From: Owenia fusiformis
Lineage: Eukaryota > Annelida > Polychaeta > Sabellida > Oweniidae
DNA: 64,000 bases
Assembly (NCBI GenBank): GCA_903813345.2
Contig: CAIIXF020000004.1
Span: 23,373,985 to 23,437,984 of the forward strand
Direction: 5' to 3'
This document shows, in pieces, positions 3,715-39,523 of this stretch. Made by a program: the position numbers and the translations under genes. Position 1 is the stretch's first letter; every line of letters begins with the position of its first letter. The notes beneath the pieces are model-generated. The model was given only the letters and a program-made list of their open reading frames with translations, was not told the origin of the DNA and ran no database searches.

Positions 3715-3853
3715 ATGCAGAAATTGTTAGCATTTGTAATTGGTCTGATTGGAGCTTTATACATGTTGCCAGTGTTTCCCCTCTGGAATACGAGAGTGCC
3801 ACCAAAAGTTACAGAAGTTAACTCTTTACTGACCGAGTATGATTATATAATAG
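3715..3853 (+). CDS. GMC exon 1
   Basis: Encodes the N-terminal hydrophobic segment ([20 protein letters not shown]) and the strand leading into the FAD fold (EYDYII). Donor ATAG|GTAAGT. ATG chosen as the only in-frame start before the FAD motif. The last ~32 bases plus the donor are the seed of the array in intron 1. Confidence 0.88.
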
Positions 3854-6800
3854 GTAAGTCCACCTTTAAATTCTTCTGGAAGATAAGTCTTTAACCCCTA
3901 ACTGTCTGAGTATAATTATATTACAGGAAAGTAGTTAACCCTTAGCTGGCTGAGTATAATTATATAACAGGAAAGTAGTTAACCCTTAACTGGCTGAGTA
4001 TAATTATATAACAGGAAAGTAGTTAACCCTTAACTGGCTGAGTATAATTATATCAAAGGCAAGTCTTTATAACTCTTTAACTGATTGGGTGTGATTATAT
4101 TACAGGTAAGTATTTAACCCCTTAACTGACTGGGTGTGATTATATCAAAGAAAGTCTTTAACCCTTAGCTGACTGGGTGCGATTATATTACAGACAAGTC
4201 TTAACCCTTCACAGACTGGGTGTGATTTTATAACGGGCACGTCTTTAACCCTTAACTTACTGGGTGTGATTATATGACAGGCAAGTCTTTAACCCTTCAC
4301 AGACTGGGTGTGATTACATTACAGACAATTCTTAATCCTTCACAGACTGGGTGTGATTATATAACAGGCACATCTTTAACCCTTAACTGACTAGGTGTGA
4401 TTATATTACAGACAAATCTTTAACCCTTAACAGACTGGGTGTGATTATATAACAGGTAAGTAGTTAACCCTTAACCGACTGGGTGTGATTATATAACAGG
4501 CAAGTCTTTAATTAACCAATAACTGACTCAGTGTGATTAAATGTATATCACAGGCAAGTGTTTAACCCTTTACCGTTTAGATGTGATTATATAACAGATA
4601 AATCTTTAACCCGTAACTGGCTGAGTATAATAATTTATTAAATAACAGTTTTTAACCTATAATTGGCTAAGTATTATTACATAACTGGCAAGTCTTTAAC
4701 CCTCTAACTCTTTACTGACTGAGTATAATTACATTACACGGGTAAATCTTTATGAATTTTGCATGACAATGTTACAGGTAAGGTCTGAACCCTTTACTGA
4801 GTATGACTATTGTATATTAGATATGACTACTGTGTTATGCAATTAACCAATCATTTGCAATTCACAAATGATATAATACAAATGTCCCTCTTCCACATAA
4901 AAACAAAATAATGAGATGACTTCAGGACATTTATGTGTTTATCAAAAAATTCAACAAGCAAAAAGCCTGTATCAAATAATGATGTGTATGCTGTAACATT
5001 GACTTTTTTGACATTGATTCAAAGTGCAAATGTGTAAATACTCCCAAATAATAAAAGATAGAAAAATAAACATAAATGTAAAAATCTTAAGTTTTCCTGG
5101 AACATACAAGAAATATTATTGGCCCAAAAAAGTTAAAAAATTATTTTTGGCTCGGTTGCATGCTTGATCTAAATTATTCATAAAATTGAATTTCTATAGT
5201 TGGTGCGGGGGCTGCAGGTTCAGTTCTGGCCAACAGACTATCGGAAGACCCCAAGAAGACGGTACTCCTACTCGAGGCTGGACGTGACGATACTTATGAT
5301 GACCGCAGCGAGATTCCCATATTTTGCGATCACCTTCAGCTGACAAAATATGACTGGCAGTACAAGACTGTGCCCCAGAAACATTCCTGTAAAGGCCTCA
5401 ATGATCAGGTAATGAGGAAGGCTGCTAATAGGTGGCACAATTGAATCAGGTTAAATGTTGTATTGAATACTGTATGATTCATTTTTTCAAACTATGTCAA
5501 TCGATGTTGTTGCAAATTTCTCAAAAACATATTCATTGAAGATACAAGAAGTAACAACTTAATGAACACATCTCTCTAGTGAAGACCTGTCTCTAATGGA
5601 CATCCCTCCTCCTCACATACTTGGCTAACTTTTATATAAATTAGCCTCTCTGTGATGAACTCCTACCTACAATGAGCACATTTTTGTGACTTGAAAGGTG
5701 TTCACTGTTTGGAGGTTTTTCTGTATAGGATACACTGGTGGATCTGGGGGGGGGGGAGATCAAGTCACAATGTGTTTAATAAATCAATTTTATTTTGATG
5801 ATATTGACTTATAGCCATAAATTAAATGCACAATGCTGCTCCCAAAGTCTCCTAAAGGAGAAATTTATGCTCCTTTTATTCTATTTAAAGGTGAGTTTCT
5901 GGCCAAGTGGAAAACTACTGGGTGGATCAACCCGCATTAACTGCATGCAATATACGTGGGGATCTAGACACGATTACGACCAATGGGAGGCCCTTGGATG
6001 CAAGGATTGGGGGTTCAGAAACCTTCATCAATATTTTCTGAAATCTGTTGGAGTCATTGGTCAGACAAGCACAAATGGTAAATATATATTTTTATTATCT
6101 AATTTTTACTTATGCTTGACTGTGATTGGTCACTTGTATGGCTATGAGGGTCAACTTTAAAAAATTGCCTATTGAAACATCCATTACATCAGTTTGACTT
6201 GATGTTGCATTTTGATGTCATTAGCTTGATTTTTTTATAATTAATGTCTCACCACTGATATTGTATTCTATATCAGCGACTGATCGCTGATATTACGTTC
6301 TATTTCAGTGACTGATGCCCTACTGAAACTAAGTGTGGTGAAACAGACAAAGGGTATAGATGTATTACTCGAGGCAGCTAGAGAACTGGGCTACCCCACT
6401 GGGGACAATACTGGAGAAGGACTTGAAGGTAAGAGATAATTGGCAAAGCCAGACTTTAGACAACTTACAAAATAAAACCATGCTGACTTTTTTTGTTTGA
6501 AACTGTGAAAATGAAATCTAATGTAATTTTATACTGACTTAAACTCAATTTTAGCCTCAACCATTGAAATGTCCTTGCTTTAATTCTAGATCTTTGCTTC
6601 ACCCGTGGTGGCAAAAACCAATGCACTTTTGTCATATATAGCCTATTGACTCCGACTGGCGGATCACGTGGGGGGCTAAACGGCCTCAAAAATGGGCCTT
6701 TTTGGACATAATTTGGCCTTTTTAGGCCACATTATCAAAAATGGACCTTAATTTTTTAAGATTTGGACCCGTCTTTAGGTTTTAGGGGCCCAATATCTTT

Positions 6801-9800
6801 TGCTCATTGAGGCAAAAGTACTGATCCTGATTTGTTCTTAAGAAAGCAATCTTTTGCAGGGTTTACTTTAGTCCTTATTTGGCCAATCTCTGGTAATCTT
6901 TTGCAGGATTTAGTCCTTATTTGGCCAATCTCTGGTAATCTTTTGCAGGATTTAGTCCTTATTTGGCCAATCTCTGGTAATCTTTTGCAGGATTTAGTCT
7001 TTATTTGGCCAATCTCTGGTAGTGGTAATCTTTTGCAGGATTTAGTCCTTATTTGGCCAATCTCTGGTAATCTTTTGCAGGATTTAGTCTTTATTTGGCC
7101 AATCTCTGGTAGTGGTAATCTTTTGCAGGATTTAGTCCTTATTTGGCCAATCTCTGGTAATCTTTTGCAGGATTTAGTCCTTATTTGGCCAATCTTTGGC
7201 AAGGAGAAAGATACCACACCTCAAGAGCATTTGTAGAACCCGCAAGTCTCAGAGCCAATCTTCATGTTTCCACTGAATCTTTTGTAACCAAGGTAAGTTA
7301 CGTAAAAAGGTGTGACCAAGACCTAATTGAAATAGACAAGACTAATTGAAAAAGGCAAGGCTAATTGAAATAGACAAGACTAATTGAAAAAGGCAAAGCT
7401 TATTGAAATAGGCGAGGCAAGTTGAAAAAGGTGAGGTAAATCAGAATAGGTGAGGCAAATTGAAATTGGTGAGGCAAATTAAAATAGGTGAGGCAAATTG
7501 AAACAGGTGAGGCAAATTGAAATTGGTGAGGCAAAATTAAGTTAATGTCAATATTACTGTAACATTATATTTCATGTTTCGAGGTTTTTATTGACAAAAT
7601 GCTGTCATTAATGTTAATCAGTAAACTTTTGTTCAAACACCTCACCTCACCTCGCCTCACCTACATTATATCTGTTCTACCAATTCAACTATTTTAACTG
7701 AAAAAATACTTATTTTGGATTGTAATTCCACTATTCAACTGCAGGTGATCATCCAGAACAAACAGGCTAATGCAATACGATTTGTGAAAGATGGACAAAG
7801 ACTGCAAGTAGGCGCAAAGAGGGAGATCATTCTCTCTGCAGGGGCAGTAGGCTCTCCTAAGATACTTATGCTCTCTGGGGTAGGACCTAAACAGCACCTG
7901 GATGACATGAAGGTACTAGGAAGTATTTTGATCAGTCAGTCATAATTTTTGACTAGGTAGAGGAAACATTTTGTGTTGTACAATAGTATCTAAAGATACT
8001 GTAATAACCCTGGGGTTAGTATTGGTACGATTGTAACTTACTACTCTACGAAAACCATTGTCTTTTTTGACAAACAATGACTTGCGACCAAATGATAAGT
8101 TACAACTTTTCCAAAAATGGACCCTTGGATGGCAAGTTACAGCGCAGCTAAGTTACAACAGTCCAACTGTAGTGTTTAAGCACTTATACAGAGTGACTCA
8201 AAAAGAGTGCCACCCACATAATGTTGCAGTTAATCTAGTTGAGCTGGTCATCTGAAACTTCCTAGGAAGTTGCTCCATGAAGTCTCATTTTAATGTGCAA
8301 AATAACAAGGCAGGAATCATGCAGACAAAGAAGCAATGCAACATTATGCGGGTGGCACTTTTTGTGTTACCCTGTAGATGGTTAAATAAATGCCAAAATG
8401 AAGATGAAATAGATTAAATGGACTGAATGAATGCCCTGCTAATCCGAACACTTTTGGCCAGTCCAAGAGGTGTTCGGATTAGACAGGTTACTGTAAAATG
8501 GAAAGTTTTCAGATACCTCTTGAGGCTGATTTACCTGTTGGAGAAAACCTCCAAGATCATCTCAGGACAAATCTACATATAGAAACAGAGGGAGATATAC
8601 CTGGGAAACATGTGGAATCTATATGGAGCAAATTAAAGTACAGCCTGTTTAGAACTGGTAAGATTTTTTATTTTAACATTCCCATTATAGACCAATATAT
8701 CAATTGTTCTAGTTATTGTGACATCACATATATTTACTGCACCAGCTTAAAAGAATATTTTTCCATTTCTCCTGCATGGTATCTTTGGGAACCTTGATAA
8801 GGGGACTTTCTCTGAAATGTCAAAATTTCTCTTGATCTAAACTTAGGTCATGTGGATACTAAGGTCAAACAGAACAAAATTTCAAGGTCAAATGTCATCA
8901 TGACCTTCTTAGGGAGTCCATAAAAACTGACCTATTGCCTGGTGGAAGGTTTAAACCTGAATTGTTCTTTATTTCAGGCTACATGACTATGCCTTATGGT
9001 TTGGAAGGGACGGGTTTCTTAAAGTCGAAGCACCAAGATAAAGACGACCAAGCTCCACATATACAATATCAGATACAAAACCTGAAATGTTCTTTTATTT
9101 CAGGCTACATGACTATGCCTTATGGTTTGGAAGGGACGGGTTTTTTGAGATCGAAGCACCAAGCTAAAGACGACCAAGCTCCACATATACAATACCAAAT
9201 GATAAGTGTACAAGCACCCCCTGAAGATAAACTCAATCAAGCTAAAAGTAATTATAAACAAAAGGTGAATTTCTTATTGTATTAATTCTTTGAGACAGTT
9301 TCAATCAAGCTGGAATATAAAAAAATTGAGTCTAATTGCTGCACGACTTTGGACCCTCCTCCTTATCTACTTCCCCAACATATCACATCATGTAAGGAGG
9401 TGTGCAGTCACATAGATCATCTAAGAAAATCAGATGTAATATAACTAATATACATTAAAGGTGTATTATAACCATTCTGGAAGTCAATTAAGGATGCATT
9501 TCATCGATATGTCTCAAATGTTACACCTCCCACATTACCACGGTTACCATATCTCTTAAATATTTATTTCAGATTTGGAAAAATTTATTTCAAGACAGCA
9601 AACCAGGATTGACATTCACCAGTATATTACTGCATCCTAAGAGTCGGGGATCAATAAAACTGAAAAGCACAGATCCGTTTGACCATCCCCTCATAGACCC
9701 CCAGTACTTGACAGAGCAACAGGATCTGGATATCCTCATAGAAGGTATATTCTTCAACTTATTTATGCTTAACACTGGTAGTTGTAAGAGAAAGTGGCTG

Positions 9801-10508
9801 CCAAACACCGCCTGCCAAACACCATCCTCAAAAAAGTTGGAGACTGTAACAAAAACTTAAATTTTTATTTCCAGCTCGAGAAATTGCAGAACAATTTGCA
9901 ACGACAGAACCCTTTAAAGCTTTGAATGCTAAAGTTCAAAATGCCATACATCCAGATTGTAAAGTGCACAAAGTTGGAACGAAAGAGTACAATGAATGCT
10001 TTGTGAGACACCAAGCTGTGACAATATACCATCCAGTTGGTACATGCAAAATGGGTGCCCAAAATGATGATTCTGCAGTTGTTGACCCTGAGTTAAGGTA
10101 AGAGTTCATAGAAGAACGATAAACCAAGAGGTTCATCTTTATATGAATATAATCTTTGAATTCTGGGTTAATTTCCTCTTGGTTAAGGTTTGTCTTATGC
10201 CTTTGTACGATATTAATTGACTGTTCGATAACATTAAACTTAACTTTTATTTTGCAAGGCGTTAGTATTTTGGAGTGCTTTAGAACATTTAAATAAACGT
10301 GTTTCAGGGTTTGAGTTATCAAATGACTGTTTTGGAACATTTTAACTACGGTAACTTTAAAAGGTTCACTGTAATTTACAGGGTTCGTGGTATCAAAGGC
10401 CTAAGAGTTGCTGATGCTTCCATTATGCCAACTTTACCATCAGGTAACACAAATGCACCAACCATCATGGTAGCAGAAAGAGCCGCTGATTTAATAAAAG
10501 GACTTTGA
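3715..10508 (+). CDS. GMC oxidoreductase (choline/glucose dehydrogenase-like), 11 exons
   Basis: FAD-dependent GMC-family oxidoreductase that oxidises an alcohol; substrate not predictable from sequence. Exons: 3715-3853, 5200-5408, 5891-6077, 6309-6428, 7171-7292, 7745-7912, 8513-8657, 9104-9264, 9573-9744, 9875-10097, 10382-10508; all junctions are GT-AG and frame-consistent, giving 590 aa, normal for the family. Residues 1-24 look like a hydrophobic signal/anchor. The FAD Rossmann motif VGAGAAGS starts at residue 47. [13 protein letters not shown] is the first GMC signature and [16 protein letters not shown] the second. The active-site pair is His527 ([10 protein letters not shown]) and Asn571 (SGNTNAP). 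If the earlier acceptor at 8978 is used, the protein gains 42 residues. Several exon edges are tandemly duplicated in the neighbouring introns (see separate entries). Identity to family is certain; exact orthology is not. Confidence 0.93.
3822..4800 (+). repeat. ~44-bp minisatellite built from GMC exon 1 end plus its splice donor
   Basis: About 20 diverged units of ~44 bp. The unit reads like CTGACTGAGTATAATTATAT then AACAGGTAAGTCTTTAACCC, which matches the last ~32 bases of exon 1 and its GTAAGTC donor. The first unit is the exon edge itself. Many units keep a weakened donor-like CAGGCAAGT or CAGGAAAGT. Confidence 0.85.
5200..5408 (+). CDS. GMC exon 2
   Basis: Encodes [14 protein letters not shown] and LLLEAG, the FAD ADP-binding unit. 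Acceptor TTTCTATAG|TT, donor GATCAG|GTAATG. Confidence 0.92.
5891..6077 (+). CDS. GMC exon 3
   Basis: Encodes [23 protein letters not shown] signature 1, then [15 protein letters not shown]. Acceptor ATTTAAAG|GTGAGT, donor AAATG|GTAAAT. Confidence 0.92.
6262..6320 (+). repeat. tandem copy of the exon 4 acceptor
   Basis: TTCTATATCAG|CGACTGAT (decoy start 6277) is followed 32 bp later by the true TTCTATTTCAG|TGACTGAT (6309). Use of the decoy would give an early TGA. Confidence 0.75.
6309..6428 (+). CDS. GMC exon 4
   Basis: Encodes [11 protein letters not shown] and [19 protein letters not shown]. Acceptor CTATTTCAG|TGACTGAT. A near copy of this acceptor and exon start lies 32 bp upstream. Confidence 0.88.
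6851..7199 (+). repeat. 42/48-bp minisatellite built from the exon 5 acceptor and exon start
   Basis: Eight units, each carrying AATCTTTTGCAG followed by GATTTAGTCCTTATTTGGCC. Six spacings are 42 bp or 48 bp (AGTGGT insert). The last unit runs into true exon 5. Read in the exon frame each earlier unit stops at TAA. The long ORFs on both strands here are an effect of the periodicity. Confidence 0.9.
7171..7292 (+). CDS. GMC exon 5
   Basis: Encodes [20 protein letters not shown] followed by [13 protein letters not shown]. The acceptor is the last of eight TTTTGCAG acceptors in a tandem array; it alone keeps the frame open, because all upstream copies run into TAA after LW. Confidence 0.9.
7320..7545 (+). 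repeat. ~20-bp degenerate array in GMC intron 5
   Basis: Units like AGGTGAGGCAAATTGAAAT or AGACAAGACTAATTGAAA. Many contain AGGTGAGG, which resembles a splice donor, but similarity to the exon 5 donor is too weak to claim descent. An inverted CACCTCACCTCGCC run follows at 7640-7661. Confidence 0.65.
7745..7912 (+). CDS. GMC exon 6
   Basis: Encodes [23 protein letters not shown] signature 2. Acceptor AACTGCAG|GTGATC, donor ATGAAG|GTACTA. Confidence 0.93.
8189..8374. mobile_element. mariner-type MITE in GMC intron 6
   Basis: Ends CAGAGTGACTCAAAAAGAGT and CTTTTTGTGTTACCCTG form a hairpin that extends through GTGCCACCCACATAATGTTG and its inverted partner. The element is flanked by TA on both sides. 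Confidence 0.65.
8513..8657 (+). CDS. GMC exon 7
   Basis: Encodes [20 protein letters not shown], the conserved GxNLQDH segment. Acceptor GTTTTCAG|ATACCT, donor ACTG|GTAAGA. Confidence 0.92.
8960..9210 (+). repeat. 126-bp tandem duplication of the exon 8 acceptor and exon
   Basis: Two near-identical copies of TTCTTT(T)ATTTCAG plus about 110 coding bases (encoding [15 protein letters not shown]). Offset 126 bp = 42 codons, so inclusion of both copies keeps the frame. Confidence 0.92.
9104..9264 (+). CDS. GMC exon 8 (alternative start 8978)
   Basis: Encodes [20 protein letters not shown] and on to NYKQK. The acceptor TTTATTTCAG|GCTACATG occurs twice, at 8977 and 9103, 126 bp apart. Both acceptors leave an open frame; the shorter exon fits the family better. 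Confidence 0.85.
9573..9744 (+). CDS. GMC exon 9
   Basis: Encodes [20 protein letters not shown] and PLIDPQYL, typical of the GMC C-terminal domain. Acceptor TTATTTCAG|ATTTGG, donor GAAG|GTATAT. Confidence 0.92.
9875..10097 (+). CDS. GMC exon 10
   Basis: Encodes the catalytic histidine in [12 protein letters not shown] and the following VVDPELR. Acceptor TATTTCCAG|CTCGAG, donor TTAAG|GTAAGA. Confidence 0.93.
10262..10402 (+). repeat. 74-bp tandem copy of the exon 11 acceptor
   Basis: GTTTCAG|GGTTTGAGTTATCAAA (decoy start 10308) repeats, 74 bp later, as TTTACAG|GGTTCGTGGTATCAAA (10382). Upstream flanks with TTTTGGA..ACATTT also match. The decoy gives an immediate TGA. Confidence 0.7.
10382..10508 (+). 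CDS. GMC exon 11 with stop codon
   Basis: Encodes [26 protein letters not shown] with the second catalytic residue, and ends AADLIKGL-stop. The final codons contain AATAAA (TTA ATA AAA), so a poly(A)-type hexamer lies inside the coding end. Confidence 0.93.
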
Positions 10509-10649
10509 GTAAACATTAAATGAAAATATAAATACTCATAGCAGAAAGGGCCGCTGATTTAAAAAAAGAACTTTGAGTGAACATTAAATGAAAATATAAA
10601 TACTCATAGCAGAAAGGGCCGCTGATTTGATAAAAGGACTTTGAGTAAA
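10460..10649 (+). repeat. tandem copies of the GMC 3' end (before the foldback)
   Basis: The coding end GCAGAAAGAGCCGCTGATTT through TTTGAGTAAACAT is followed by two more copies (starting near 10540 and 10610) that keep the codons for [11 protein letters not shown]-stop almost intact. The third copy is cut by the foldback element at 10650. Confidence 0.9.
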
Positions 10650-13600
10650 TGTATCAGATGCTGGCACAGTTTTGCCGGAAGTTTGCAAGAAGTAACTTTT
10701 GGCAATGCAGTATGTTAGAGTAACCTAGTAGGTGTAAGAAAATATAAGGTGATGGCCTTTAAAGTGGTAAAAACAATTTTCACGGCCGAATTGGACTTCA
10801 ATTCCTGCGATTTCAGGGGGTACTATAAGACTATTTCATAACATAAAGGATATAGTTGCTATTGTTCTGCTTTCTACAGCACACATTACTAGTCCAAAGA
10901 TGAATAATATCCTAAAGTTATAGGCCGATATCTGTATTAGTCTCAGAAATATTGCAATTAATAGGAAAAAATATGCAATTTTATTCATTTTTAAGTCTCA
11001 CGTATCTTATATTTGTAGCTTCCAGCAAAAGATGGCAGCTTAAATAGCTCAAAATTGTTTTCTAAAAACTAATTCAAGCTTTGTTTGATATTGTAATACA
11101 ATTATAATAATGATAATGTACTATTTATGATTTTTAATATGACTTTATAGTACCCTACCCCTGGAAAGTGGGCGTGGTCAATGTTATCATTTTGCAGCAT
11201 ACAATGAAAAACTTATATTGATAGAAAGCAAATCAATGCATTTTTAACATTTTCACTTGTTACTTGACATTGTAATTCATTCATTACTAAAATATAGGAC
11301 TCTACATATTTATATATACGTTTTCAATTTTGTACAATGTATCATGATGAAATCTAATAGGCTGGTTCATTTTCAGTGTTCACTAACGCATGAAATGTAA
11401 GTCACAGTGTTTCCAAATTACCTTGGCAATGAGAAAGTACCACAAAGACTACATAATATGAGCAGTTTCAAGGTCCTAATACTAATACTTACCGATCTAT
11501 CGGCGTTCAAAAATAGAGAAAGCTGTCGTGAGTGCAGTTTTAACTGACTTTGAACTGAAACTGCTGCTTAATGAATATTTTTCTCAACATCTGTGACTTT
11601 TTTAGACCCCAAACATAAGATACCAAGACATAATGCTACCAAGTTCTGATATTGGAAGTTTCAGAGCTCTAGATCAAATATTCACTTCTGCATGTACTTT
11701 TAAAAAGAGGCAAAAGGACAAAAAACCTGTCAGATATTGTGAAAAATATGAAAGATGCACTATTCAGAACAATTTATCTCTTAAATGTTACTTTTATTTG
11801 ACATAATTTCTGATTCTGCCTCCAGTTAGTACCACCAATAATACATATGAGAAGACTTAACGTCATAGTAAGTGGGAGTACAGATCTATTGGCTTCTGAA
11901 AATGGGAAAAGCTGTAGCAAGTATGATTTTCACCAGTTTTTCATCTAAGACTGCAACTTTCTGAATTTTCTTTTTACAAACTGCACAGTAAGACCAAAGA
12001 CATTAAAGGAAACCTGGTCATTGTACCACCAATAATAGGTAAACATAATATTGGTAATATATACCAAGTGTTTACTTTAATTCCAAGGCATCTGAATTGA
12101 TAAATAAATAAAATCAGTACTTTATTGTATCTTGGGACAAAATACACTGTTTGAATGCTTAGCTTGACATCACAGTATCAAGTGAAAGATACGTTGTTAT
12201 ATACAGCTATATATCACTTTAACTGACTTTACTCTTCAATTTGAAATATGCCTGGCCATCCTAAGAAAAATGCGAAGGAGGGCAAAGAGGGTGCATGGTA
12301 TAATTGGTAATTAAGCTCTTCTAGAGTTTAAAGCTCCCACAATTTTTAAAAACGAAATGGAGAATAAGATGTGAAAGTATAGGATGGACTAATTGTTCTA
12401 AGAAAGTTTTTGAAAGTAACATTGCATGAAATATTTAAGCAAGAGATATGTTCCAAAATACTTTCAGGTAGAAATAAAGCTCCGTAATGTAAAAACAATG
12501 TATTCTCAGTATTCAATAATAACATTCTTTATAGGTTTTTTGGTCTTAAGCATATCAGTGATTATCCCATGGTTGCAAGGATATAGATCGAATATCACAT
12601 GAAGATATATTTGATATGTGGATCAAGTTATAATATTTTAGCAAAAAATTCACAAACCATCGAATATCACTTTTAAACTATCGAATATCACGTCTTAAAA
12701 AGTGATATTCGGTGGTTTGAAAAGTGATATTCCATGGTTTCGATTTTTTTCAAAAAAAAATTTCTTTTTACATTTTTTAATTATTTTCAAAAATATTAAA
12801 AAAAAATTTCAACATTTTTTCACAATTTTTTTTCAATTATTTTTTCAAATTTTTTCTCGAATTATATTTTTCACATTTTTTCGCTGATGATGATTTCCCA
12901 TGGGATAAATAAATTTTTTTTCAAAAATATCAATTATATCCACTCATGGATACAAATATCTTCACCATAGGATATTCCTATATTATATCAATCCGGATGC
13001 TGAAGTCACTTAAAAAATAATAACTAGATGTAACTCCTAGTAAGCACTTCAAGTTTCAGTTCTAAATAAAATACAGTTTAGTTAAAAAATTGTTAAGAAT
13101 ACATACAATTTCACCATTTCTGACTGTATTTTGCATATTTTTAGGTGTCAATGATTCAATGATTATTTGATCACCTCCTAAAACTACTCTCATATTTATT
13201 TGGTGGTACAGTGATATGGAATCCTGTCTTTTGGGGTCTCACGGAATTCTTGTTTTAGAGAAGAAAATCCTGAAAGCTGCAGTTTAATATTATGAATTAT
13301 AGGTGAAAATTGCACTTGCTACACTGCTTCTCCCATTTTTAGATGCTAATAAATCTGTAACTACACTTACTATGACCTTAAGTCTACTCATATGTATTAT
13401 TGGTATTACTAACTAGAGGCAGAATCAGAAATTATGGTAAATAAAAGTAAAATTTAAGAGATAAATTGTTCTGAATAGTGCATTTTGTCACATTTTTTCG
13501 CGATATCTGACTGCATTTTGTGTCTTTTGGGTCTTTTTAAGAGTCCATGCAGATATGAATACTTGGTCTAGAGCTCTGAAATTTTCAATACCAGAATTTG

Positions 13601-17629: not shown

Positions 17630-17748
17630 CTGGAAGGCTGAGTCTTCGGTTTAGGCATTTTTTGTAATAACGCCTGGATTTCTTTCTTCTCATCATAATT
17701 TTTCCAGAGTTCGTAGAGTGCCAAAATGTGCCTGGTTATCTCTAAAAT
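17630..17748 (-). CDS. CCNC: CCNC exon 9
   Basis: Encodes ILEITRHILALYELWKNYDE and KKEIQALLQKMPKPKTQPS. Acceptor TCTTTCCAG, donor TTCCAG|GTGAGG. An upstream copy of the acceptor at 17,787 would add 13 in-frame residues. Confidence 0.92.
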
Positions 17749-23700: not shown

Positions 23701-26700
23701 ACACATATCGAGGACGTCATTATCATTAACCTGGCCAGAGCCAATGATGTACTATAACAATTTTGAAGTCGCAAGTACGAAATTGTGGCTTAAAAAAGAA
23801 TATCAAGACTATATTGAATACATCGACAAACTAGGCGGGATTTATTATTATCGTTGGGGTGATGCACCGATCAAATCTCTCGCTGTATCATTGTTTGTAC
23901 CTCAGGAAAATATTCATCAATTTACCGATGTATGGTATACTCATGACACTCTATCATACCCGACAGTGCTTACGTTAATGTATACACATAGTATTACTAT
24001 AATAGCTTTGTTTGTGATAATAGCCTCAATTATGACATATTTGCTAAGAAAACATAAATATCTAAAATACGGCCAATCACTGTTGAGGGGAAGTGTCAAA
24101 TGAGAAAGCTATTATATAGAGGGACAATGTCAAAATGCTTATTCTGTCTGATACAGTGTAGGATTATTCCTTTTCTGCAAAAAATATGAAAGGAGTAATT
24201 GTAGTCTGTAGTCAATATATTTACTCATTTACTCATCATACCTTGGTAATCTAATATGCCTGTATGTGTCAAGCATTTAAACTAGATTAATAAATAAAGA
24301 CCACTAACACTGGTGATCCACTCGATTACGATGGTTACCGAAACGGTTCGTTTCGATAACAAAATGTCGGAACATCAAAGGTATGATTTTTCTTTTTCCC
24401 TTATTTCACACGTTGTAGGCAGAATTCCCACAACATTTTTATCACGACATGTATCAGTGTTATGTGTATAAGAAAATGTACATATTTGCGAACAAATAGT
24501 TCAGAAGGCAACAAAATCGTCGATTTAATTTTTATGTAACTTAAAGGGTTCCGATTAGCATCCCGTATAAAAACAATATGGCGGCTCCAGGCGAATCAAC
24601 CGGATCAGTCCATTTTTAAGAAATAAGGGGAGTTCTGTAAAATCCAGTTTATTGAAATTGTCTTTGAGATAAAGTAATCCGTTTATAATGATTTTGAAAA
24701 CGTTATCCAGAGAGTGATTGCGTTCAAAGAATACATGTACAACAGCCAATATAAATCCTTGTATTAGAAACCGGTTTGTCTTGCTTTGTTTCATTTGTAG
24801 GATATTTCATATGCCAAGCTGTGTGCTGTTACGTTATGGGGAAACTTAGATGCCAATTTTTCCTTATTATACACAAATAGAAGATCCTGAAACTTCACCC
24901 ATAAATGTGGAATTGATTTGTCAAAATAAAAATCACCATTTTATAAATGTGTGACGATCTATAATATACTTATGCTATATAACAGTTAGAGGTGTTGACA
25001 CAACAACCTCGAACCTGTGAACCCTTGAGTATTATTCCGGGATTGGGCCTTTTATTATACTAAATGGTGAGCAACACCAGAAACGAGCGTTCGATTTGCT
25101 AAACGATATGCGTCACCCTTTAAGTGTGGAAAACAGCGGATTATATAAAAATGGACTGTAACAAATACCTGGATTTGTTGATTTTTAAAAAAAGTAATTT
25201 TTTGATATCACTTTTTATGCCCGGCATAAAAAGTGATGTCCCATTTTATGCTGGCATAAAAAGTGATATCCCATTTTATGCTGGCATAAAAAGTGATGTC
25301 CCATTTTATGCTGAGCATAAAAAGAGATACTCCATTTTATGCTGGTATTGTTTAGGAAGTGATGTTTAATGGTAGTTCAAGATTTAAGACCCATCATTCT
25401 GGCACAGATTGCTGAACCATTGTTAGTTAAGAATTCCTAATAGAATTAAGAATTATTAGCTGAAACTGAGTTGTTTTGCCCTGGCAAACAATTTTCCAAC
25501 TTGTAGTTCAACTTCTTCTGTCTATTTGTTGACAGTCTGTGATGTCATCATTAATCATCACAATAGAAATGAGGTAATTCACGATGACATCACAAAGTAC
25601 TCTGATGACATCATCAAACATCACAATGGAAACAAGATAATTCATGATGACATCACAAAGCATCTCTGTCATAGATAGAACTCTGCCACATTTCTTAGAA
25701 ATCAAACTACTATGTGACATCATAGATAATCTCACTGTCACAGATAGAATTCACCTAATTCCCATTGTGATGATTGATGATGACATCACAGACTGTCAAC
25801 ACATATAGACAAAAATGAATTTCAAATGCATATTGGGATATTGTTTGCTAGGACAAACAGAACAGTTTCAGCTATTAATTCTTAATTCTATTAGGAATTC
25901 TTAACTAAAATAAGTTCAGCAATCTATGTGAGAAAGATGGGTCTGAAATCTTGAACCACCTTTAAACATCACTTACTAAATAATACCAGCAGAAAATGGG
26001 GTATTTTTATGCTCAGCATAAAATGGGACATCACTTTTTATGCCAGCATAAAATGGGACATCACGTTTTATGCTGGGCATAAAAAGTGATATCAAAAAAT
26101 ATTTTTTTTAAAAACCAACAAATCCGGGTATTTGTTACAGTCCATTTTTATATAATCCGCTGTTGGAATTAAATTGACGATTCTGTCTTCTGAGCTATTT
26201 TTTGCAAACATGTACATTTTCTAAAACATAAGATACTGATACACGTTTGTGAGAAAAATGTCGTCAGGATTCTGCCTACAACGCGTGAAATAAGGAAAAA
26301 AGAAAAATCGTATGATTCGTATAATGCTGATATAATAACCTTATTTTCAACATTATCACATACACCATGTACACACTAAGTGGTTGCTAAGAGGGAAAGT
26401 ACCCCAGAATTCATATATGAATGTATTGCCAAATAAAAATGAGCCTTTAGGTTCGTCTATGTATTCTGGGATATTTATTTAACATATTTAAAAGTTATAA
26501 AATGCATTTCGAAAATATGAAATAGAAAAGGTTATTGTATACTGGGAATTCCTTGAAAGCATCTTTGTATGTATAGAAAATCCTGTCGGAGTGAAACAAC
26601 TTTGGTACTTCTAAAGAGCGGGAGGTATTCTTCAGAGGTCCGTTCAAATTAAGTCATTTGGTCTTAGGACTCTGAAAAGTGTTCCACTTCAAAAGGTGTT

Positions 26701-29700
26701 CCACTCAACAGGCTTCATTGTAGTTACACATTTTCTAACAATAAAACATGCAGAATAAAACTTTAAAAATATTTTTTATTGTTCCAGTGTTATCAATGTT
26801 GAGGCCTGAAAAGTTACTTTTGATATGTTTTTTCACCTACACTCATGTATATAAAAATAGAGTGACATTAATATTTGAGCCAGGCCACAGGAAAGGGGTC
26901 TTATCACAGATTTTTTCAATATTCTGATTTTTTTTGTTTATCTTAGAAAGCACAAAGAGACCTTTCAAATGAGCCATAGCTTATGTCTTAACAATTTTTC
27001 CTTGCATATATACACCAAAAAGTCGGATTTGAATTTAGCACATTTTCCTCTTAATCTTGGGCACATTTTTGGCTCTGTGGCACAATTCTTAATTTTGTGA
27101 TAAGACCGTTTTGCTATGGGCAGGCTCATTTGTTAGTGACTGGTCTATATTGAGACTTCCAACAAGCTGATTGTTCTAGAATCTTGTTACGATCTGCCAA
27201 ACTCAACGAATTGTATGCCTTTTTACATTACACATTTTAGGTCTGGAGGCATTTTAGTAATGGGATAATACTAAGTTACTGTTTTCTCTTTCCTTGTCTA
27301 CAAATGTGTCTGTCTCATATTCGTGATTATAAAACATTTAATGGTTGAATCTTTTCTTTCATAACAGACCCATGGGATGTAAAAAATGTTCAGAATACAA
27401 ATCAAAAACATCCAGTTAATTTCCAATAATGATAAACCAATTAACCACTGGATTCACACCTTTCTCTTAATCCAAACATAAAACATTCAGTTCTTTTCTA
27501 ATAGGATAAACCAATTAACTCCTGTATTCACACCTTTCTAGAGCATCCTGTTGTTTTCCACAATTAGGGGTGTCACCGAGACACACGCTAATTAGGACAA
27601 TATTGGTTCTTTGATTACATTAATGTAAAGATAAATTTTACAACTACAACATTGACTTCAAATATGTGGCTCTTTTCATGTTTTGAGTATTAATGAAATG
27701 TCCAGACAAATCCGGACATTTGATTTTTGATAAAAATGTTCAGATGTTTAGATTGGAGCGCCATCTGGCGTTTGGGAAGTGAATCGGGACTAAATATTTA
27801 TAAGGTAAGTCCTAATTTATCTGAAAACATGTCAAAGTTCAGTGGAAAATCTCATTCTAAGCTGGCGGCGGAGTGATTTTGACCTTGGTGATTTTTACCA
27901 CAATTCTCTTAGAAATCTGACGATAGAGGTAGGTAGTGTCTTAAAGTTTATTTATCTCAAAAATAGGCTATGCGAGTCTCTCCCGCACACTGTGTTATGT
28001 TGCACTAGGCTTGGATACTAGTCGTTAATAAGATACAGGGTAAAATGTTATAATGGCCACCTATGGGAAACTCTTATATTGTCTCCAACCTATACAGGTT
28101 CTACTGTACTTTATTTTAGCGAATGTGTATTTACAGTTTATGATTAACATTATGGTAAAAAACGAACTGATTGATTTTTCCTAACAAAATAATTGTCGAG
28201 GCCAATGCTGGTCGGAGCTTCACGGTTTCAGTTAACCATCTGAACCCTAATCAAAATTATATACAGTGTTCTCCGTAGGATTTTTTTGGTCATATTATGC
28301 CAATTTTTGTGATTTTTCTCATTTTCAAGTGGGTGCGAATTGATTATCACGTGGGTGCAAGCCTGATTTTAATGCTGGGGAGATCACTGGTATATTTATT
28401 CAGAGGGAAAAAATCAATCATAGACGTCATACCTGCAGTAAAATCGTTTGAAGTAGATGGTTCCTGTGGCGATCACTTGCTGCCTCACTTTCAACTGTTC
28501 TCCTAATGCCTGCAGCACTGAAAAGTAACACACGGCAAATGACGTAAAAGAGCAAGATGACAGAAAATGCAATTAAAATCTAAGATCCATCGTCTAGAGT
28601 GATATTATTTTTATGAAGGAGTTGATATCAAATATCAGAACAAATGAGTATATCATGCCTGTAGCCAGCGGGGGTTCGAGAGGTTCGTGCGAACCCCCGG
28701 TCAAAAATTCCCAAAAGTTCATGAAATAAATTAGATAAGATTTAACCCATCAATGAGAAACCATGGCCTTCATATTTCTTGTTAAAGGCAGAGTGTGATG
28801 AGTATCAGAATGGATTTAACCATTTACTGTGCTCATGTGGGGCTATGTAGCGTATTGTGCCTGGGTCACATTTGCTCCGATCCATCGGCCGGCGTCCGGC
28901 AGATTGAGTGTTTCGTTCAAATTTGTATTCAATTTTGAACAAAACACTCAATCTGCACTCAATCGTCACTGTTCTAGCACCATCCACATTATGGCGCTTC
29001 AAACGCGTGTGCCATCCCCAATAATGGCGCAATTGCTCAAGCACCATCCACATTATGGGGCTTTCAGACTCGAGCGCCATCCACATGATGGCGCTCCAGA
29101 CTCCAGCACCATTCACATTATGGGGCTTTACCATAGGCTAAGGGCGATAGAAATCATTTTTTAATAAAGATGTCATGGTAATCGATCTGTGTTTATCTAT
29201 GTTTCTCTTTAGAAAAAAAGATAATACTGGATTCTGTTGGTGCTGCCATCTCTATATCCGCCCAGAACCTATGGGCTTTACGAACCAAGCACCATTCACA
29301 TTATGGGGCTTACAGACCTAAGTACCATCCATATTATGGCGCTTTCAGACTAACGCGGCACCATCAACATTATGGTGTTTTCAAATATAGCACCATCCAC
29401 ATAATTATCGGGCTACTGATTTTCATTTGCCTTGAAGGAGATTTCAACTTTCATTCACAAGCCGCAAACAACGCGACTTCATACGCAAGAGAGTGTCACA
29501 GTCAATTCATGAGATGCCCATGCAGATGCCAACATGTTTGTATATACTTATGTTAAGAGATTAATATTATTATTATAACATGCATTTTTATATATATTTG
29601 TTTGTTTCCTATAAATCGTAGCAAATGTGACCAAGGCATGTGTCCTGTTCGAAACTATAACAAGACCGGTGTGAAAGAAATGATGGTCCCCCAGGGACGG

Positions 29701-32700
29701 GCCCAGGGATTATGGTCCCCTTTCTTATCGGCCCTTACTGGCCCTGATTGTGTATAAGATAATGAGGGAAAGAGTTGTATTTAGGTTACCATATAAATCG
29801 GAGAGTAGGACCATAATTTGATAGGAACTTCTACCCTTTTACACCTGGTCTAGTAGGAGCAAAATCATTTCGACATCAGGATATTAAACCATAGGCTCAG
29901 GGGCGATAGAAATCATTTTTAAATAAAGATGGCATGGTAATCGTTCTGTGTTTATCTGTGTTTCTCTTTAAAGAAAAAGATAATACTGGATTCTGTTGGT
30001 GCTGCCATCTTTATATCGGCCCAGAACCTATGATAAAAACAGTAATTGGCCATTTAATTCAATCATAACAATAGATTTTTTCTGAAAAGTTTCGAATTCA
30101 CAATGAAGCAACGGTGTATCTTTTATAATCAATATTTTATAATGAAGTGTATTTTTGAATTTAAATCTTAAATAAAATAATATTAGCGTCAGAATGAAAT
30201 GGATTACATACGCTATTACAATTTAATAAATGAGAATTGTAGGAACGGTATATACTCTTTTATGATCAATATTCAATCGTGCTATAATAGAATTCAACCA
30301 TTTACTGTGATATATGTAACATATTAGTTCTGTTCGTATCTGTAATTGGAGCTCATGTGGTGTCTAGAAGCAAAATCATTTTATCCGAATATTATAGTAA
30401 TACTAATTGGCCATTTAATTCAATTTTTAATGATGTTTTTTCTGAAAGGTTACGAATTCACAATGACGCAACAGTATATCTTTTAGAATCAATATTTTAA
30501 TGAAGTGTATTTTTAAAATTTAAATCTTAAATAAAATAAGATTAGTGTCAGAATGAACTGATTACATATAACTGTATAACAATTAAAAAAGAAAGGATCG
30601 AACTTTATACTCTTTTATGATCAATATTTGATCGTGCTGAGTCTTGGCCCATATAGACAAACTAGTGACAAAAAAGCTAACTTAATTGACATTAAAAGTT
30701 AATCTTGCAGCAGAATTTGCAAGACGTATATGTTATTGCAAACAATTTTAGACGGTTACATCTTTGATTATAACGCTCAGGCTGACCACGAAGATAGGCA
30801 TATCTTTAAGATACATTCATTATCCGAAGGAAAGTATGTCAATGATAATTAAGTAACTGAATTAGGTATTGCGCGCGGTGCAAATCTGGATGTAAATTAA
30901 ACAAAAAGAGAACCCCACTTGAGAAATCCTGGCTACAGGCCTGTATATAGACAATGAAGCGATGGCTCAAGACTTGTATTTCATGGACTTGCACATCTAC
31001 ATACTACCGAAGGAGAAAGACATTTTGTTAAATCGCACACAGTGCTATCTATTTTTAAAATTCCCAAAGATAATCATAACTTTGTTGTATTGACAAAATA
31101 CAGTGACATCTATACTTACAATTTGCAAAGAAAATCATAACTTTGTTATATTCCTGTTCATCTATCACCTTCAGATCAGCTTCTCTTTCCTTCATAAGAT
31201 CTTGAGGGTCTAACAGCCATTGTTGACTGGAAAAAGAATGTTCATTTAGCACTATATACAACATTTTTGGATTTGTAATATAAACATCTAATTTGGCAGA
31301 TTTTAGAGGATGAGTCTCTTTAACATATTCTTTTGTGTAGGAGGGGGATTTATATTATCCTATGAGGGATATGGGTTGTGACCTCTACAGTCATTATGGT
31401 ATTACAAAAGTGGGTCTCCTGCGCATGTTAGAATTTTTCTTCAAAACTCAACTTTTGTTCAAGTTGATATGATTGTTACTCAAGTCTCTAGCCAATTCTT
31501 GGCTAGAAGTAATTCCATCTGGAACTCCTAGAACTACTCCAGTAAAATTTCTTGCCGGGGTTCAATAAATTTAAGTAATTCTAAAAACTGTCATGTTAAA
31601 GGCATACTGTAACATACAGCCGACAAAATGGTTAAAAAAATATTTTCTCAGGCTTTAGAGTCGATTTCATGGTTTAAAACCTTCTCTGGTGATTCTATTT
31701 TCGAACTATGCATGAAAGTCCATTCTAAGTCGCCTATTGAACCTTGAAAAGTGATATTTAGACTGAGGATTGAAAGGTGTTCACAACTTTCAGCTCATCT
31801 TTATTACGACAGACAGGAAGTGAATTTTCGAGTATACTAATTGGTGATAATGTTCTTTTTTTATGAAGCAAGGAAGTCAAAACATTAATAGAAATCATAG
31901 TAAGCATTAGAAGATCATTTAGAAGTATTTAAAAGTTTTAAATGCGAATAGCTCATTATAGTATTAGTTGATCAGTAATCACATGACGTTTTATGCCAAT
32001 GAAAGAATCAGTTATAATAAAGCTGCTTGGTTGGCAATAGTTCAACAAGTTAAAACAAATACCACGGCTTTCATTTATTAATCTGAATGTTCTTGTTCAG
32101 TACAAAGAAATTTTTGATCGCAATATTTGCGTGTAATATTTAACTTATTTCAACCGTCAAATTCCTCCATTTTTGGTTCTTCCGAGCCACTTCCGGGTCG
32201 GTCAAACGGGGAATCCCCATTTAAATCCAACCGCCATCTTGGAAAGTGATAGAATATCTTTCGATGAAAAAGAAATACGTTCCCATTCTGCCGATAAACC
32301 CAGATAATTGTAGATTCAACTACACAAAAGAATGCTAAAATACCCAGGAATCTATTGAAGTAGGAATGTTATAAAAACCCTTCGACCTTCGACCTGCACC
32401 TTCGACTTACAGGGTGTCCAAAAAGAAAATATTATAGAATTTATTTTTGCCGATCTCAGACCACGCAAGAGTCACTTGATTTGTGGTTCACAGGTGAGAT
32501 CGTTAAGATCTTAAATTGTAGCAACGTTTGCAGTACTCTAGGTATAGTTACAGGGGTGAAATAGCGTTTTCATGTTATCAAATTAAGATTCTGTTGATGT
32601 TGATCGGGTAGTCAATCGGGTAGTTTAAATGGGTTACTTCCTGGTTTTGATTCGATTGAATCAAAGTAAGATTAGAGTTAGTAGCAATCAATTACTGTTC

Positions 32701-33474
32701 TATTTATTGAGTTCCAATTATAGTCTTGTTGTGTGATCAATATTAAAACGGGATATGGCGTCAATAACTTGTTATTTAACTTTGAAATCTTGTCCGAAAA
32801 GTGATGACGTCACTGGGCCTATAAAGTATTTCGCCGATGTAAACTCAAGAGATGGCAGCTATAGCTTTTGACGAGGACAGAGCTCCGTTCAATTTCATAA
32901 TCTATGTGAAGTTGGACTTAGTCGTTTTTCAAAGAAATATTTTGGGACTTTGACAATTTTCATAAGAAAAGTCAAAGGTGCAGGTCGAAGGGTTTTTATA
33001 ACTTTCTTTTTGGCCCGCTTTTTGGATACCCTGTAGGTTGAAGCTGAAGGTCGAAGGTGCAGGTCGAAGGGTTTTTATAACATTCCATTGAAGTAGGTAT
33101 CTTAAGTGTAAGAGGCATAGAAAATTCTCCCATTTTGTAAACGTACAGGCAAAAGATTGAGATGTTCTCAGGACTAAAGTCCTGGCACGGGATAAGAATT
33201 GGCAATATACGGTCAGCGACTGGGTTTGAAGCGAGAGGTGGGAGCTAACAGGAAGTACTGCAAGTACTATTCATATTTAAATAAATTTGCCCTCAAATCG
33301 CAATCACCCCGATAGTCATTCGAAAATACAAGCTTATTCTTAGAAAATTGGTTTCACTTTCAATGTACTTAACCCTATTATCGCCCATTACAAATTGTGA
33401 TTCTTTCAAGCTTCGTTTTAATACGATAAGTCAGTAACTTACTAATGTGAACTCTGCCAAAAGTTCCCTGCCAT
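17630..33474 (-). CDS. CCNC: cyclin C (Mediator kinase module), 9 exons placed
   Basis: Cyclin C pairs with CDK8/19 in the Mediator kinase module in the nucleus. Coding exons on the minus strand: 33474-33443, 31226-31120, 28517-28433, 20438-20369, 19961-19910, 19620-19526, 19310-19151, 18503-18424, 17748-17630; 800 coding bases, all junctions GT-AG and phase-consistent. The start MAGNFWQSSH, the cyclin-box LLQALGEQLKVRQQVIATGT, LMAPTCIFLASKVE, FSYAYPSGEFPYRINHVLEC, DCCLVIFHPYRPL and QQKDAKQWFAELSVDMDK match animal cyclin C along its length. The final exon (short polar tail) was not found; without splicing after 17,630 the frame ends QPSR-stop, giving 267 aa against about 283 in human. Introns are long and transposon-filled; intron 3 contains an antisense gene. 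Several exon edges are tandemly copied. Confidence 0.95.
17741..17842 (-). repeat. tandem copies of the CCNC exon 9 acceptor
   Basis: TTCCAG|ATTTTAGAGAT.ACC occurs at the true exon start (17,748) and 39 bp upstream (17,787); a third copy near 17,829 has lost the AG (TTCCAA). The 39-bp spacing is 13 codons and the reading frame through the second copy is open. Confidence 0.8.
18050..18423 (-). repeat. ~18-bp degenerate array at the CCNC exon 8 donor
   Basis: Units like TGTTCTGTGATTTTTTCATG (minus strand) start within four bases of the exon 8 donor and fill most of the following intron. The shared unit is intronic, so descent from the exon edge is not shown here. Confidence 0.65.
18424..18503 (-). 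CDS. CCNC: CCNC exon 8
   Basis: Encodes CLHMACVIQQKDAKQWFAEL then SVDMDK. Acceptor GTATTTCCAG, donor GATAAG|GTATTG. Confidence 0.93.
19151..19310 (-). CDS. CCNC: CCNC exon 7
   Basis: Encodes DCCLVIFHPYRPLIQYAADI, LLQLAWRIVNDSLRTDICLF and YPPYLIAL. Acceptor TGATTCCAG; donor CCTAG|GTGATT is weak. Confidence 0.93.
19305..19440 (-). repeat. degenerate copies of the CCNC exon 7 start
   Basis: Minus-strand ACTGTTGCATTATGATTCCA just before the exon resembles the exon start ACTGTTGCCTAGTGATATTC. Two more CTATTGCATT(A/T)TGGG units lie further upstream. Confidence 0.55.
19526..19620 (-). CDS. CCNC: CCNC exon 6
   Basis: Encodes KNKFSYAYPSGEFPYRINHV then LECEFFLLEMM. Acceptor ATATTTTCAG, donor ATGATG|GTGAGA. 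One residue longer than human at AYPSGEFP. Confidence 0.93.
19770..19912 (-). repeat. degenerate copies of the CCNC exon 5 donor
   Basis: After TTTAA|GTGAGTATTTGAAA the intron repeats GTGAGTAT-type words (AAGTGAGTATATTTTGAA, CAGTGAGTCTTGAGT, CAGTGAGTATTTGAAA), so several strong donor consensus sites follow the true one. Confidence 0.7.
19910..19961 (-). CDS. CCNC: CCNC exon 5
   Basis: Encodes EFGVISNNRLISTCQNL. Acceptor TTTATTTAG, donor TTTAA|GTGAGT. Confidence 0.9.
20369..20438 (-). CDS. CCNC: CCNC exon 4
   Basis: Encodes HPLKCIDPLLMAPTCIFLAS then KVE. Acceptor TCTGTTCCAG, donor GTAGAG|GTGAGT. The acceptor and exon start are repeated upstream. Confidence 0.93.
20411..20546 (-). repeat. 61-bp tandem copies of the CCNC exon 4 acceptor
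   Basis: The unit holds TTCTGTTCCAG|CCACCCTTTGAAATGCATAG plus AAATAAGTCAA. One full copy (decoy exon start 20,499) and one partial copy lie upstream of the true exon edge, at 61-62 bp spacing. The decoy would shift frame. Confidence 0.88.
22915..22975 (+). promoter_or_regulatory. TATA-like element before the GT15 gene
   Basis: TATTTATATATAGC at about 22,916-22,930 lies ~50 bp before the ATG. No experimental start; weak evidence. Confidence 0.3.
22976..24103 (+). CDS. GT15 (Kre2/Mnt1-type) alpha-mannosyltransferase, intronless
   Basis: 375 aa. Predicted Golgi-type glycosyltransferase of the fungal KRE2/KTR/MNT1 family, which transfers mannose from GDP-mannose to glycans. Residues ~5-27 are a hydrophobic type II anchor. 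Family motifs in order: AFIYLLMNGTPEGIRRLF, IVIFHEPG, YRHMCRFHAKIVTKHPLM, the metal-site-like YYMRLDDDSQF, YNNFEVASTKLW (with the Glu that aligns to the proposed catalytic residue), then GGIYYYRWGDAPIKSLAVSL and the His motif VWYTHDTLSYP. A second hydrophobic stretch sits near residues 333-352, followed by a basic tail, unlike the usual soluble C-terminus. It lies in intron 3 of cyclin C on the opposite strand. GT15 is best known from fungi and sparse in animals, so transfer or retroposition is possible but not shown. Complete start to stop. Confidence 0.9.
   Translation: MNKPTITLTGLLAISIIIFIVIRIPLISRTGHSHRISRGGPDTRNWPDRILYQELKRTTEPDLGLQILRSLLKKWPSNKPKAFIYLLMNGTPEGIRRLFSGLKSVDKNYNDEFKYPIVIFHEPGVTHSQKILIQNASKSLIVFQMVEFKIPEFLEKEVPKRACSKNVGYRHMCRFHAKIVTKHPLMELFDYYMRLDDDSQFNGNIKYDLFKEMSDNSYIYGYLGITNDSPECVIGLWDAVRKHISRTSLSLTWPEPMMYYNNFEVASTKLWLKKEYQDYIEYIDKLGGIYYYRWGDAPIKSLAVSLFVPQENIHQFTDVWYTHDTLSYPTVLTLMYTHSITIIALFVIIASIMTYLLRKHKYLKYGQSLLRGSVK
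24289..24298 (+). terminator. poly(A) signal of the GT15 gene
   Basis: Overlapping AATAAATAAA about 185 bp after the stop codon. Confidence 0.5.
24310..26340. mobile_element. nested inverted-repeat element (outer)
   Basis: Arms at about 24,380-24,530 and 26,168-26,320 are inverted copies (AATTCTGCCTACAACGTGTG, ATGTACATTTTCT, GACGATT.TGT). A related single arm occurs at 42,862-43,015, and both loci carry CTGGTGATCCA(C/T)TCGATTAC at an end. No coding capacity. A second foldback is inserted inside it. Confidence 0.7.
25133..26163. mobile_element. 1.03 kb foldback element (inner)
   Basis: Ends ACAGCGGATTATATAAAAAT and its reverse complement. Each arm carries tandem ~30-bp units CCCATTTTATGCTGGCATAA and AAAGTGATGTC. 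The middle (25,540-25,800) is a second palindrome built from GATGACATCACA and TGTGATGTCATC words. Confidence 0.85.
26341..28432. other. rest of CCNC intron 3
   Basis: No exon or conserved ORF recognised on either strand. One local duplication, AACATAAAACATTCAGTTCT-type words with GATAAACCAATTAAC, at 27,430-27,515. Confidence 0.5.
28433..28517 (-). CDS. CCNC: CCNC exon 3
   Basis: Encodes LQALGEQLKVRQQVIATGTI and YFKRFY, the core of the first cyclin fold. Acceptor ACTTTTCAG, donor CTGCAG|GTATGA. Confidence 0.93.
28975..29400. repeat. ~30-bp tandem repeat
   Basis: Units of the form GCACCATCCACATTATGGCG plus a variable 8-12 bases (CTTTCAGACT...), about ten copies, interrupted by a MITE at 29,132-29,273. 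ORFs across it on both strands are periodicity effects. Confidence 0.8.
29132..29273. mobile_element. 142-bp MITE with 8-bp target duplication
   Basis: Ends CATAGGCT and AACCTATG. It interrupts the tandem array and is flanked on both sides by GGCTTTAC. A second copy of the same element is at 29,890-30,032. Confidence 0.85.
29850..30640. repeat. two-copy ~360-bp tandem duplication
   Basis: AGCAAAATCATTT...TAATTGGCCATTTAATTCAA through CTTTTATGATCAATATT occurs twice (from about 29,858 and 30,367). The first copy holds the MITE and the second does not, so the MITE came after the duplication. Confidence 0.75.
29890..30032. mobile_element. second copy of the 142-bp MITE
   Basis: About 90% identical by eye to 29,132-29,273, same CATAGGCTC...GAACCTATG ends and orientation. 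Flanks TATTAAAC and ATAAAAAC are a degraded 8-bp pair. Confidence 0.8.
31056..31160 (-). repeat. tandem copy of the CCNC exon 2 end
   Basis: Coding AATATAACAAAGTTATGATT.TCTTTG next to the donor recurs in the intron 61 bp later as AATACAACAAAGTTATGATT.TCTTTG. The copy lacks a good donor. Confidence 0.8.
31120..31226 (-). CDS. CCNC: CCNC exon 2
   Basis: Encodes QQWLLDPQDLMKEREADLKV and IDEQEYNKVMIFFAN. Acceptor CTTTTTCCAG, donor AAATT|GTAAGT. Its 3' end is copied 61 bp further into intron 2. Confidence 0.93.
32365..33086. mobile_element. 722-bp foldback element in CCNC intron 1
   Basis: Inverted ends AATGTTATAAAAACCCTTCG, with GACCTGCACCTTCGA following, flanked by direct repeats ATTGAAGTAGG (32,354-32,364 and 33,087-33,097). 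Inner arms carry ACAGGGTGTCCAAAAAG and its inverse. Confidence 0.8.
33443..33474 (-). CDS. CCNC: CCNC exon 1 (start codon)
   Basis: ATG GCA GGG AAC TTT TGG encodes MAGNFWQSSH plus two bases of Tyr, identical to the conserved animal start. Donor CATTA|GTAAGT. Confidence 0.93.
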
Positions 33475-39500: not shown

Positions 39501-39523
39501 TCTTAGTTATTTTATAATTTCAG
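36510..39523. other. region before the P-like transposase
   Basis: Contains an 18-G run at 36,907-36,924, and at 37,590-37,960 about a dozen degenerate units around GTACTCAT / AGTGCTCATT. Several GT-AG bounded short stretches (e.g. 37,996-38,072) could be exons but cannot be linked in frame to 39,524. Confidence 0.45.

Follow-up and report, generated by a model that had tools for sequence, protein, structure and literature searches.

Tandem copies of exon edges, probably mirage-type minisatellites, in genes of the annelid Owenia fusiformis

The stretch of DNA analysed here, called the window, comprises 64,000 nucleotides of the genome of the annelid Owenia fusiformis (assembly GCA_903813345.2, contig CAIIXF020000004.1; G000:C4:23373985-23437984 in our numbering). 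It contains two unrelated genes on opposite strands, and many of their exon edges recur in nearby tandem copies. The assembly is 498.26 Mb in 525 contigs. Family matches from profile searches all lie on contigs C1-C12 (~478 Mb, 96% of the assembly) save four on C222, and a COX1 search aimed at the mitochondrial genome gave no match. The erythrocruorin linker domain PF16915, not known outside annelids, has three matches above its cut-off (best E 5e-7); it is absent from 14 control genomes, a contrast of little weight because all 14 are prokaryotic. Gene models were built with a purpose-written spliced aligner and the domains in the window were checked against Pfam. The first gene encodes a GMC oxidoreductase (3715-10508, + strand; Pfam GMC_oxred_N/C). 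Its 11 coding exons, modelled by alignment to E. coli BetA, lie at 3715-3853, 5200-5408, 5891-6077, 6309-6428, 7171-7292, 7745-7912, 8513-8657, 9104-9264, 9573-9744, 9875-10097, and 10382-10508, the last including the stop codon. The starts of exons 1 and 9 and the link between exons 9 and 10 were placed by hand from the reading frame. The second gene encodes cyclin C (CCNC; 17630-33474, - strand; Pfam Cyclin_N and Cyclin_C_2). Alignment to human CCNC gives nine well-supported coding exons; a possible extra exon at 17077-17041 is weak and lies beyond this span.

An earlier note on this DNA held that tandem copies stand beside ten splice edges of these two genes. Each junction was centred in a 40-mer for which a second direct copy was searched within 500 nt, the trivial diagonal being excluded. 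All 456 junctions examined contributed their reversed and their inverse-complement flanks to the null, which holds 912 scores; the strict cut used for counting is a score of at least 34 with a match that spans the junction. By this measure eight of the ten named edges are copied (null fraction ≤0.001), and 5 of the 36 window junctions pass the strict cut. The GMC exon 1 donor has an array at 3885-4709 (+) with a 44-bp unit made of ~34 nt of exon end and ~10 nt of intron, for which Tandem Repeats Finder (TRF) reports 16.5 units. The donor itself scores 35 with a match that includes only ~6 nt of intron, and the end of exon 1 is identical to the array consensus at 35/42 positions (score 49; the maximum over 3000 random stretches is 23). 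The GMC exon 5 acceptor array (6867-7199, +) has 42/48-bp units, 7.6 units of 42 bp by TRF, and a score of 80. Two copies each are found by TRF at the acceptor of exon 4 (6255-6316, +; 32 bp, score 31) and at the acceptor and start of exon 8 (8953-9194, +; 126 bp, score 67). The exon 8 duplication is in frame and open, so either copy could be the exon start, and use of the first would add 42 residues. Within CCNC, on the - strand, arrays reported by TRF lie at the acceptors of exon 4 (20411-20553; 62-bp unit with 37/40 bases matching at the junction, score 65) and exon 9 (17724-17835; 39-bp unit, score 46). The exon 5 donor has a short downstream copy (19834-19930; 20/23, score 31), and the exon 2 donor a single degenerate downstream copy (31039-31140; 32/40, score 40). 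The two named edges that fail are the GMC exon 11 acceptor (score 24, null 0.032) and the CCNC exon 7 acceptor (score 21, null 0.127), neither of which has a copy well above the null. The acceptors of GMC exons 9 and 10, edges absent from the earlier note, match each other at 15/16 positions (null 0.005), a likeness taken for a probable similarity of pyrimidine tracts. The further statement that each copy carries its own splice signal describes the exon 5 array well, where AG is intact in 7/7 upstream copies; it fails at exon 1, where GT is intact in 2/10 copies found, and at CCNC exon 2, where the copy has TT in place of GT. A separate 19-bp array of 11 units (7325-7535) begins 32 nt past the GMC exon 5 donor, and several of its units have a GTGAGG donor-like motif.

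The array reported for the 3' end of GMC is real. Its 68-bp unit contains the 3' coding end with the stop codon and is repeated at 10471-10649 (+, TRF), and further copies of the unit lie at 14752-15135 (+, TRF). Copies of the last coding bases and the stop codon lie at 10471-10649 and then at 14752-15036, on either side of a 4.1-kb palindrome (10650-14751). The outer arms of the palindrome are ~725 bp long and 96.6% identical; its inner arms are 81% identical. The arrangement looks as if a foldback element had been inserted into the array. Two 30-bp arrays in inverted orientation within CCNC intron 3 (25203-26084) resemble the ends of a palindromic element. In GMC intron 6, a dispersed element (~8233-8380) has at least dozens of genome matches at ~73-86% identity, some of them as inverted pairs.

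The frequency of copied edges was measured in 27 further regions of 6-10 kb, taken from clusters of Pfam matches to CCT/HSP60, aldehyde dehydrogenase (ALDH), and GMC genes. Intron-poor matches were omitted, so that C8:24993385 and C3:19347324 went unused, as did C222. The ALDH list is partial, with 12/214 candidates scored, and one region (L007) contains 3000 N. Exons shorter than 45 nt, or with fewer than 6 identities, or below 20% identity, were excluded with their introns, a rule that also loses good short exons (L034 2935-2964, L030 894-936). Two junctions, L004 6894 and L021 5010, are doubtful owing to weak alignment of the flanking exon, and counts are given with and without both. The sample holds 210 introns (208 GT-AG and two GC-AG) and thus 420 junctions. 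A second copy straddles 19/420 of them (17 without the doubtful two), as against 1/420 in the reversed and 0/420 in the inverse-complement control. Both edge types are affected (donors 8/210, acceptors 11/210). An earlier scan with 50-mers, a masked centre, and 1-kb flanks was replaced by the 40-mer scan because it missed units below 50 bp; at a score cut of 36 it found 17/420 sample junctions spanned (reversed 0, inverse complement 1). For replication, eight proteasome regions with 32 introns and 64 junctions were used under a design fixed before the sequences were fetched. They gave 0/32 donors and 3/32 acceptors, with 0 and 0 in the controls. Pooled over these 35 regions, all picked blind to repeats, a second direct copy straddles 22/484 junctions (20 without the doubtful ones), or ~4.5%, against 1/484 reversed and 0/484 inverse complement. 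Copied edges are therefore no peculiarity of GMC and CCNC, and the recurrence noted earlier extends past the window. The window (5/36) differs from the sample (19/420) with Fisher P 0.03 and so stands at the array-rich extreme of normal variation.

Some of the sampled arrays are large. The CCT2 donor at 2800 (L008) has at least 19 further near-identical copies at 53-bp spacing, and the CCT8 acceptor at 2077 (L006) has eight. A second array of 53-bp period lies in the same CCT2 intron (L008 4767-5070). In PSMB5 (L034 3635-5001), an 83-bp unit comprising the final coding exon, its acceptor, and the stop codon recurs ~16 times and reaches the end of the sequence fetched. Judged by eye, most of these copies could encode an identical C-terminal ending, which would let several act as the last exon. 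Setting the two doubtful junctions aside, TRF arrays cross junctions in 12/35 regions; in the sample, 16/79 gene-span arrays do so. Copies abound throughout introns (630/5903 interior points have a direct copy; reversed 16, inverse complement 168) and are scarce in exon interiors (25/1452; reversed 0, inverse complement 0), and only 1/79 arrays lies wholly within a called exon. The recurrence of crossing arrays in those 12 regions bears on the idea that they are stuttered or mis-joined repeats of the assembly. One assembly was examined, and when it was searched for another haplotype of the GMC locus, the matches listed comprised only the locus itself and dispersed repeats, which leaves room for such an artefact. 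It is nevertheless highly improbable, since copies vary within arrays, units vary between genes, and many regions are affected.

We consider that the arrays are probably mirage-type minisatellites, which begin as local tandem duplications, tens to a few hundred bases long, that by chance straddle an exon edge and then expand, homogenise, and decay. Duplication would occur at a high rate anywhere in the genome, and selection would remove duplications internal to exons. One that straddles a donor would convert it to the order exon-E|I-E|I-intron, and one that straddles an acceptor to intron-I|E-I|E-exon. Such edge-crossing events could be nearly neutral, because the copy adjoining the exon body would still yield the same mRNA while the other copies become intronic. 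The spliceosome would choose the exon-proximal copy, probably by exon definition, judging from the homology models. Copy number would then shift by unequal exchange or slippage. There may also be a slight additional preference for exon edges, but the explanation does not require one.

Such structures have a precedent. The term mirage was coined over twenty years ago in lancelets, for amphioxus Adh3, and mirages are also reported in the globins BflGb6 and BflGb9, PGBD5, and troponin C (PMC3087553, PMC3902484; the Adh work via PMC3087553). Units there measure 10-72 bp in Adh3 and ~150-160 bp in the globins (PMC3087553, PMC3902484). The authors of the globin studies considered mirages possibly general in cephalochordates and described them at both boundaries, with splice signals retained by many of the copies, though not by all, and regular splicing undisturbed; RT-PCR (reverse transcription PCR) and copy-number differences between haplotypes were also reported (PMC3087553, PMC3902484). 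The arrays in Owenia are likewise minisatellite-like duplications across an exon-intron boundary, on its 5' or 3' side, of similar unit size. Their units span the boundary, both 5' and 3' boundaries are hit, and many but not all copies have AG or GT. They differ in their annelid host, in being counted over 484 junctions, and in the terminal-exon (PSMB5) and 3'-end (GMC) cases, and they are described here from genomic sequence. The Owenia arrays thus add a case from outside the phylum of the lancelets, and one whose frequency has been counted. The papers cited here report lancelet mirages one gene at a time, and the presence of mirages at about one in twenty sampled annelid junctions suggests that the habit is not confined to cephalochordates. 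Our literature search found no paper that joins Owenia fusiformis with minisatellites, a negative that holds for the searches made. Two human systems are related. Human segmental duplications have internal tandem repeats at exon-intron boundaries, with 27 intron modifications after inspection (PMC2812944). These repeats also sit at splice boundaries; in these recent duplicates they lead to altered introns or to alternative splicing, whereas the conserved genes of Owenia retain the exons that homology predicts. Furthermore, human UBC has introns inside tandem repeats with dual-specific AGGT sites, and 792 human introns lie within tandem repeats (PMC10809524). There too splice signals are repeated in tandem units, but whole introns lie inside the repeats and the UBC intron is a multiple of the unit, whereas the arrays described here straddle one edge only. 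These arrays offer many natural experiments in splice-site choice, each with near-identical sites of which the exon-proximal one would give the normal mRNA.

Tandem genomic duplication that copies splice signals may also create an intron, and a model of intron gain of this kind has been proposed for amphioxus globins (PMC3087553). If it applied here, the arrays would mark newly gained introns. This is extremely improbable for Owenia. The array-bearing GMC introns 1, 4, and 7 of the window lie at positions (query residues 47, 219, and 364) that are shared by 5, 7, and 9 of 10 GMC paralog models, the family in which positions were compared; since such positions are common to many paralogs, the arrays sit at old introns and the GMC gene shows no new one. 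Moreover, no duplication flanks an intron on both sides: each crossing array in the sample, window, and replication touches a single end of the intron concerned.

The units of crossing arrays measure 22-255 bp. Copies within an array are from 100% identical (L006, L008, GMC exon 5) down to ~80% identical, a range that fits what is expected for an array that turns over. The core dinucleotide is intact in 82/103 copies, counting the window and the two doubtful junctions. Selection for decoy splice sites, in order to regulate splicing or to titrate factors, had been raised in the earlier note as a possible cause, and we hold it to be very unlikely. Several arrays do keep a perfect site in all copies found (L006 8/8, L008 donor 19/19, L034 16/16, GMC exon 5 7/7), but these arrays are near-identical throughout, so there has been little time for loss. 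Over the 15 arrays scored of 16 given, mean core retention is 0.81, below the 0.86 of other dinucleotides (core higher in 10 arrays, lower in 4), which points to neither a strong purge nor a strong retention of decoy cores. Most cores have been lost in GMC exon 1 (0.20 kept) and L014 (0.33 kept). Crossing units show no clear frame preference either. With two doubtful and two higher-order periods counted, 9/21 units have a length divisible by three, where 7 would be expected, and extra copies are thus not evidently retained as coding sequence.

Whether exon edges are preferred depends on the null; a weak bias is allowed but unproven. Point coverage in the sample is 3.8-5.2% at junctions, 4.3-5.4% at intron points no more than 100 nt from an edge, and 1.7% at exon points. 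It rises to 13.9% at 200-400 nt and 17.9% at 400-1000 nt into the intron, where it is inflated because long arrays are counted many times. When whole arrays of the 27-region sample are shuffled across the gene span, 16/79 cross a junction against 21.4 expected, with no excess. A second version of this shuffle caps exon overlap at 60 nt (the earlier plan had 1.5-kb flanks and re-placement in non-coding sequence). The unit-length nulls reduce every array to a single seed as long as its unit and place it on a collapsed gene. They were added after the result of the whole-array shuffle was known and are taken as the fairest, because an array is founded when a single unit is duplicated.

Several results weigh against a purely chance placement of the duplications. 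The shuffle with exon overlap limited to 60 nt gives 16 crossings against 9.7 (P 0.022). Under the unit-length null, 16/63 sample arrays cross against 8.8 expected (P 0.005), or 14 against 8.5 without the two doubtful junctions (P 0.021), and approximate variants give 16 against 6.9 when the shortest period is the unit (P 0.0002) and 17 against 9.4 at a lower TRF score (P 0.004). The pooled count is 17/76 against 10.4 (P 0.014), and that of the window, which was picked for its copied edges, is 5/16 against 1.7 (P 0.009). Copies in the window also do not thin out near edges (25/140 points at 21-100 nt, 20/134 at 101-200 nt). Should this excess be real, randomness by itself would not fully account for the arrays. 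Better preservation is another possible source of a residual bias, the exon copy being under constraint; however, the excess sits in young arrays, a subclass picked afterwards. In the sample, the exact unit-length test on young arrays gives 8 against 4.2 with one doubtful junction dropped, and this supersedes a rough estimate of 9 against 2.0.

The excess could instead mean that exon-intron junctions are true hot spots of tandem duplication (e.g., through transcription, R-loops, nucleosome edges, or higher exon G+C) where mirages are seeded preferentially. The pooled results for units of at least 25 bp (16 against 9.2, P 0.006) and, among these, for young arrays with at least 95% match (9 against 4.2, P 0.003) point in this direction, as does the G+C content of 0.438 in exons and 0.337 in introns. 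Yet the whole-array shuffle shows no such excess, these subclasses were examined only after the main result, and the gene bootstrap interval of the pooled ratio of 1.63 (0.97-2.27) takes in 1. When the array-rich genes L008, L015, and L021 and the doubtful junctions are dropped, 8 crossings remain against 6.3 (P 0.27), and the replication alone gives 3/15 against 2.0 (P 0.30). Hot spots are therefore a rather unlikely reading, and non-random seeding is not established. We regard with similar doubt a more far-reaching proposal. In it, a mechanism linked to exons or transcription would make young tandem duplications strike junctions ~1.6-2 times as often as the interior of introns. As a result, 4-5% of splice sites, with those of CCT and proteasome genes among them, would bear near-perfect decoys (up to 19 or more) for splicing to disregard, and a terminal exon could turn into an array of last exons able to replace one another, as in PSMB5. 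With copied edges at about one junction in twenty, whether tandem duplication favours junctions can be counted directly.

The window contains other features. A single-exon gene of the Glyco_transf_15 (2-alpha-mannosyltransferase) family (22964-24103, +; Pfam E 3.5e-46) lies within CCNC intron 3, antisense to CCNC. Large minisatellites occur away from both genes at 35010-36058 (55 bp x 18.8) and 48698-50670 (46 bp x 42.9). An open frame at 51595-52695 (-) encodes a PHD finger. Another at 39507-41186 (+) encodes a TNP-like RNase H domain and is transposon-derived by its looks.

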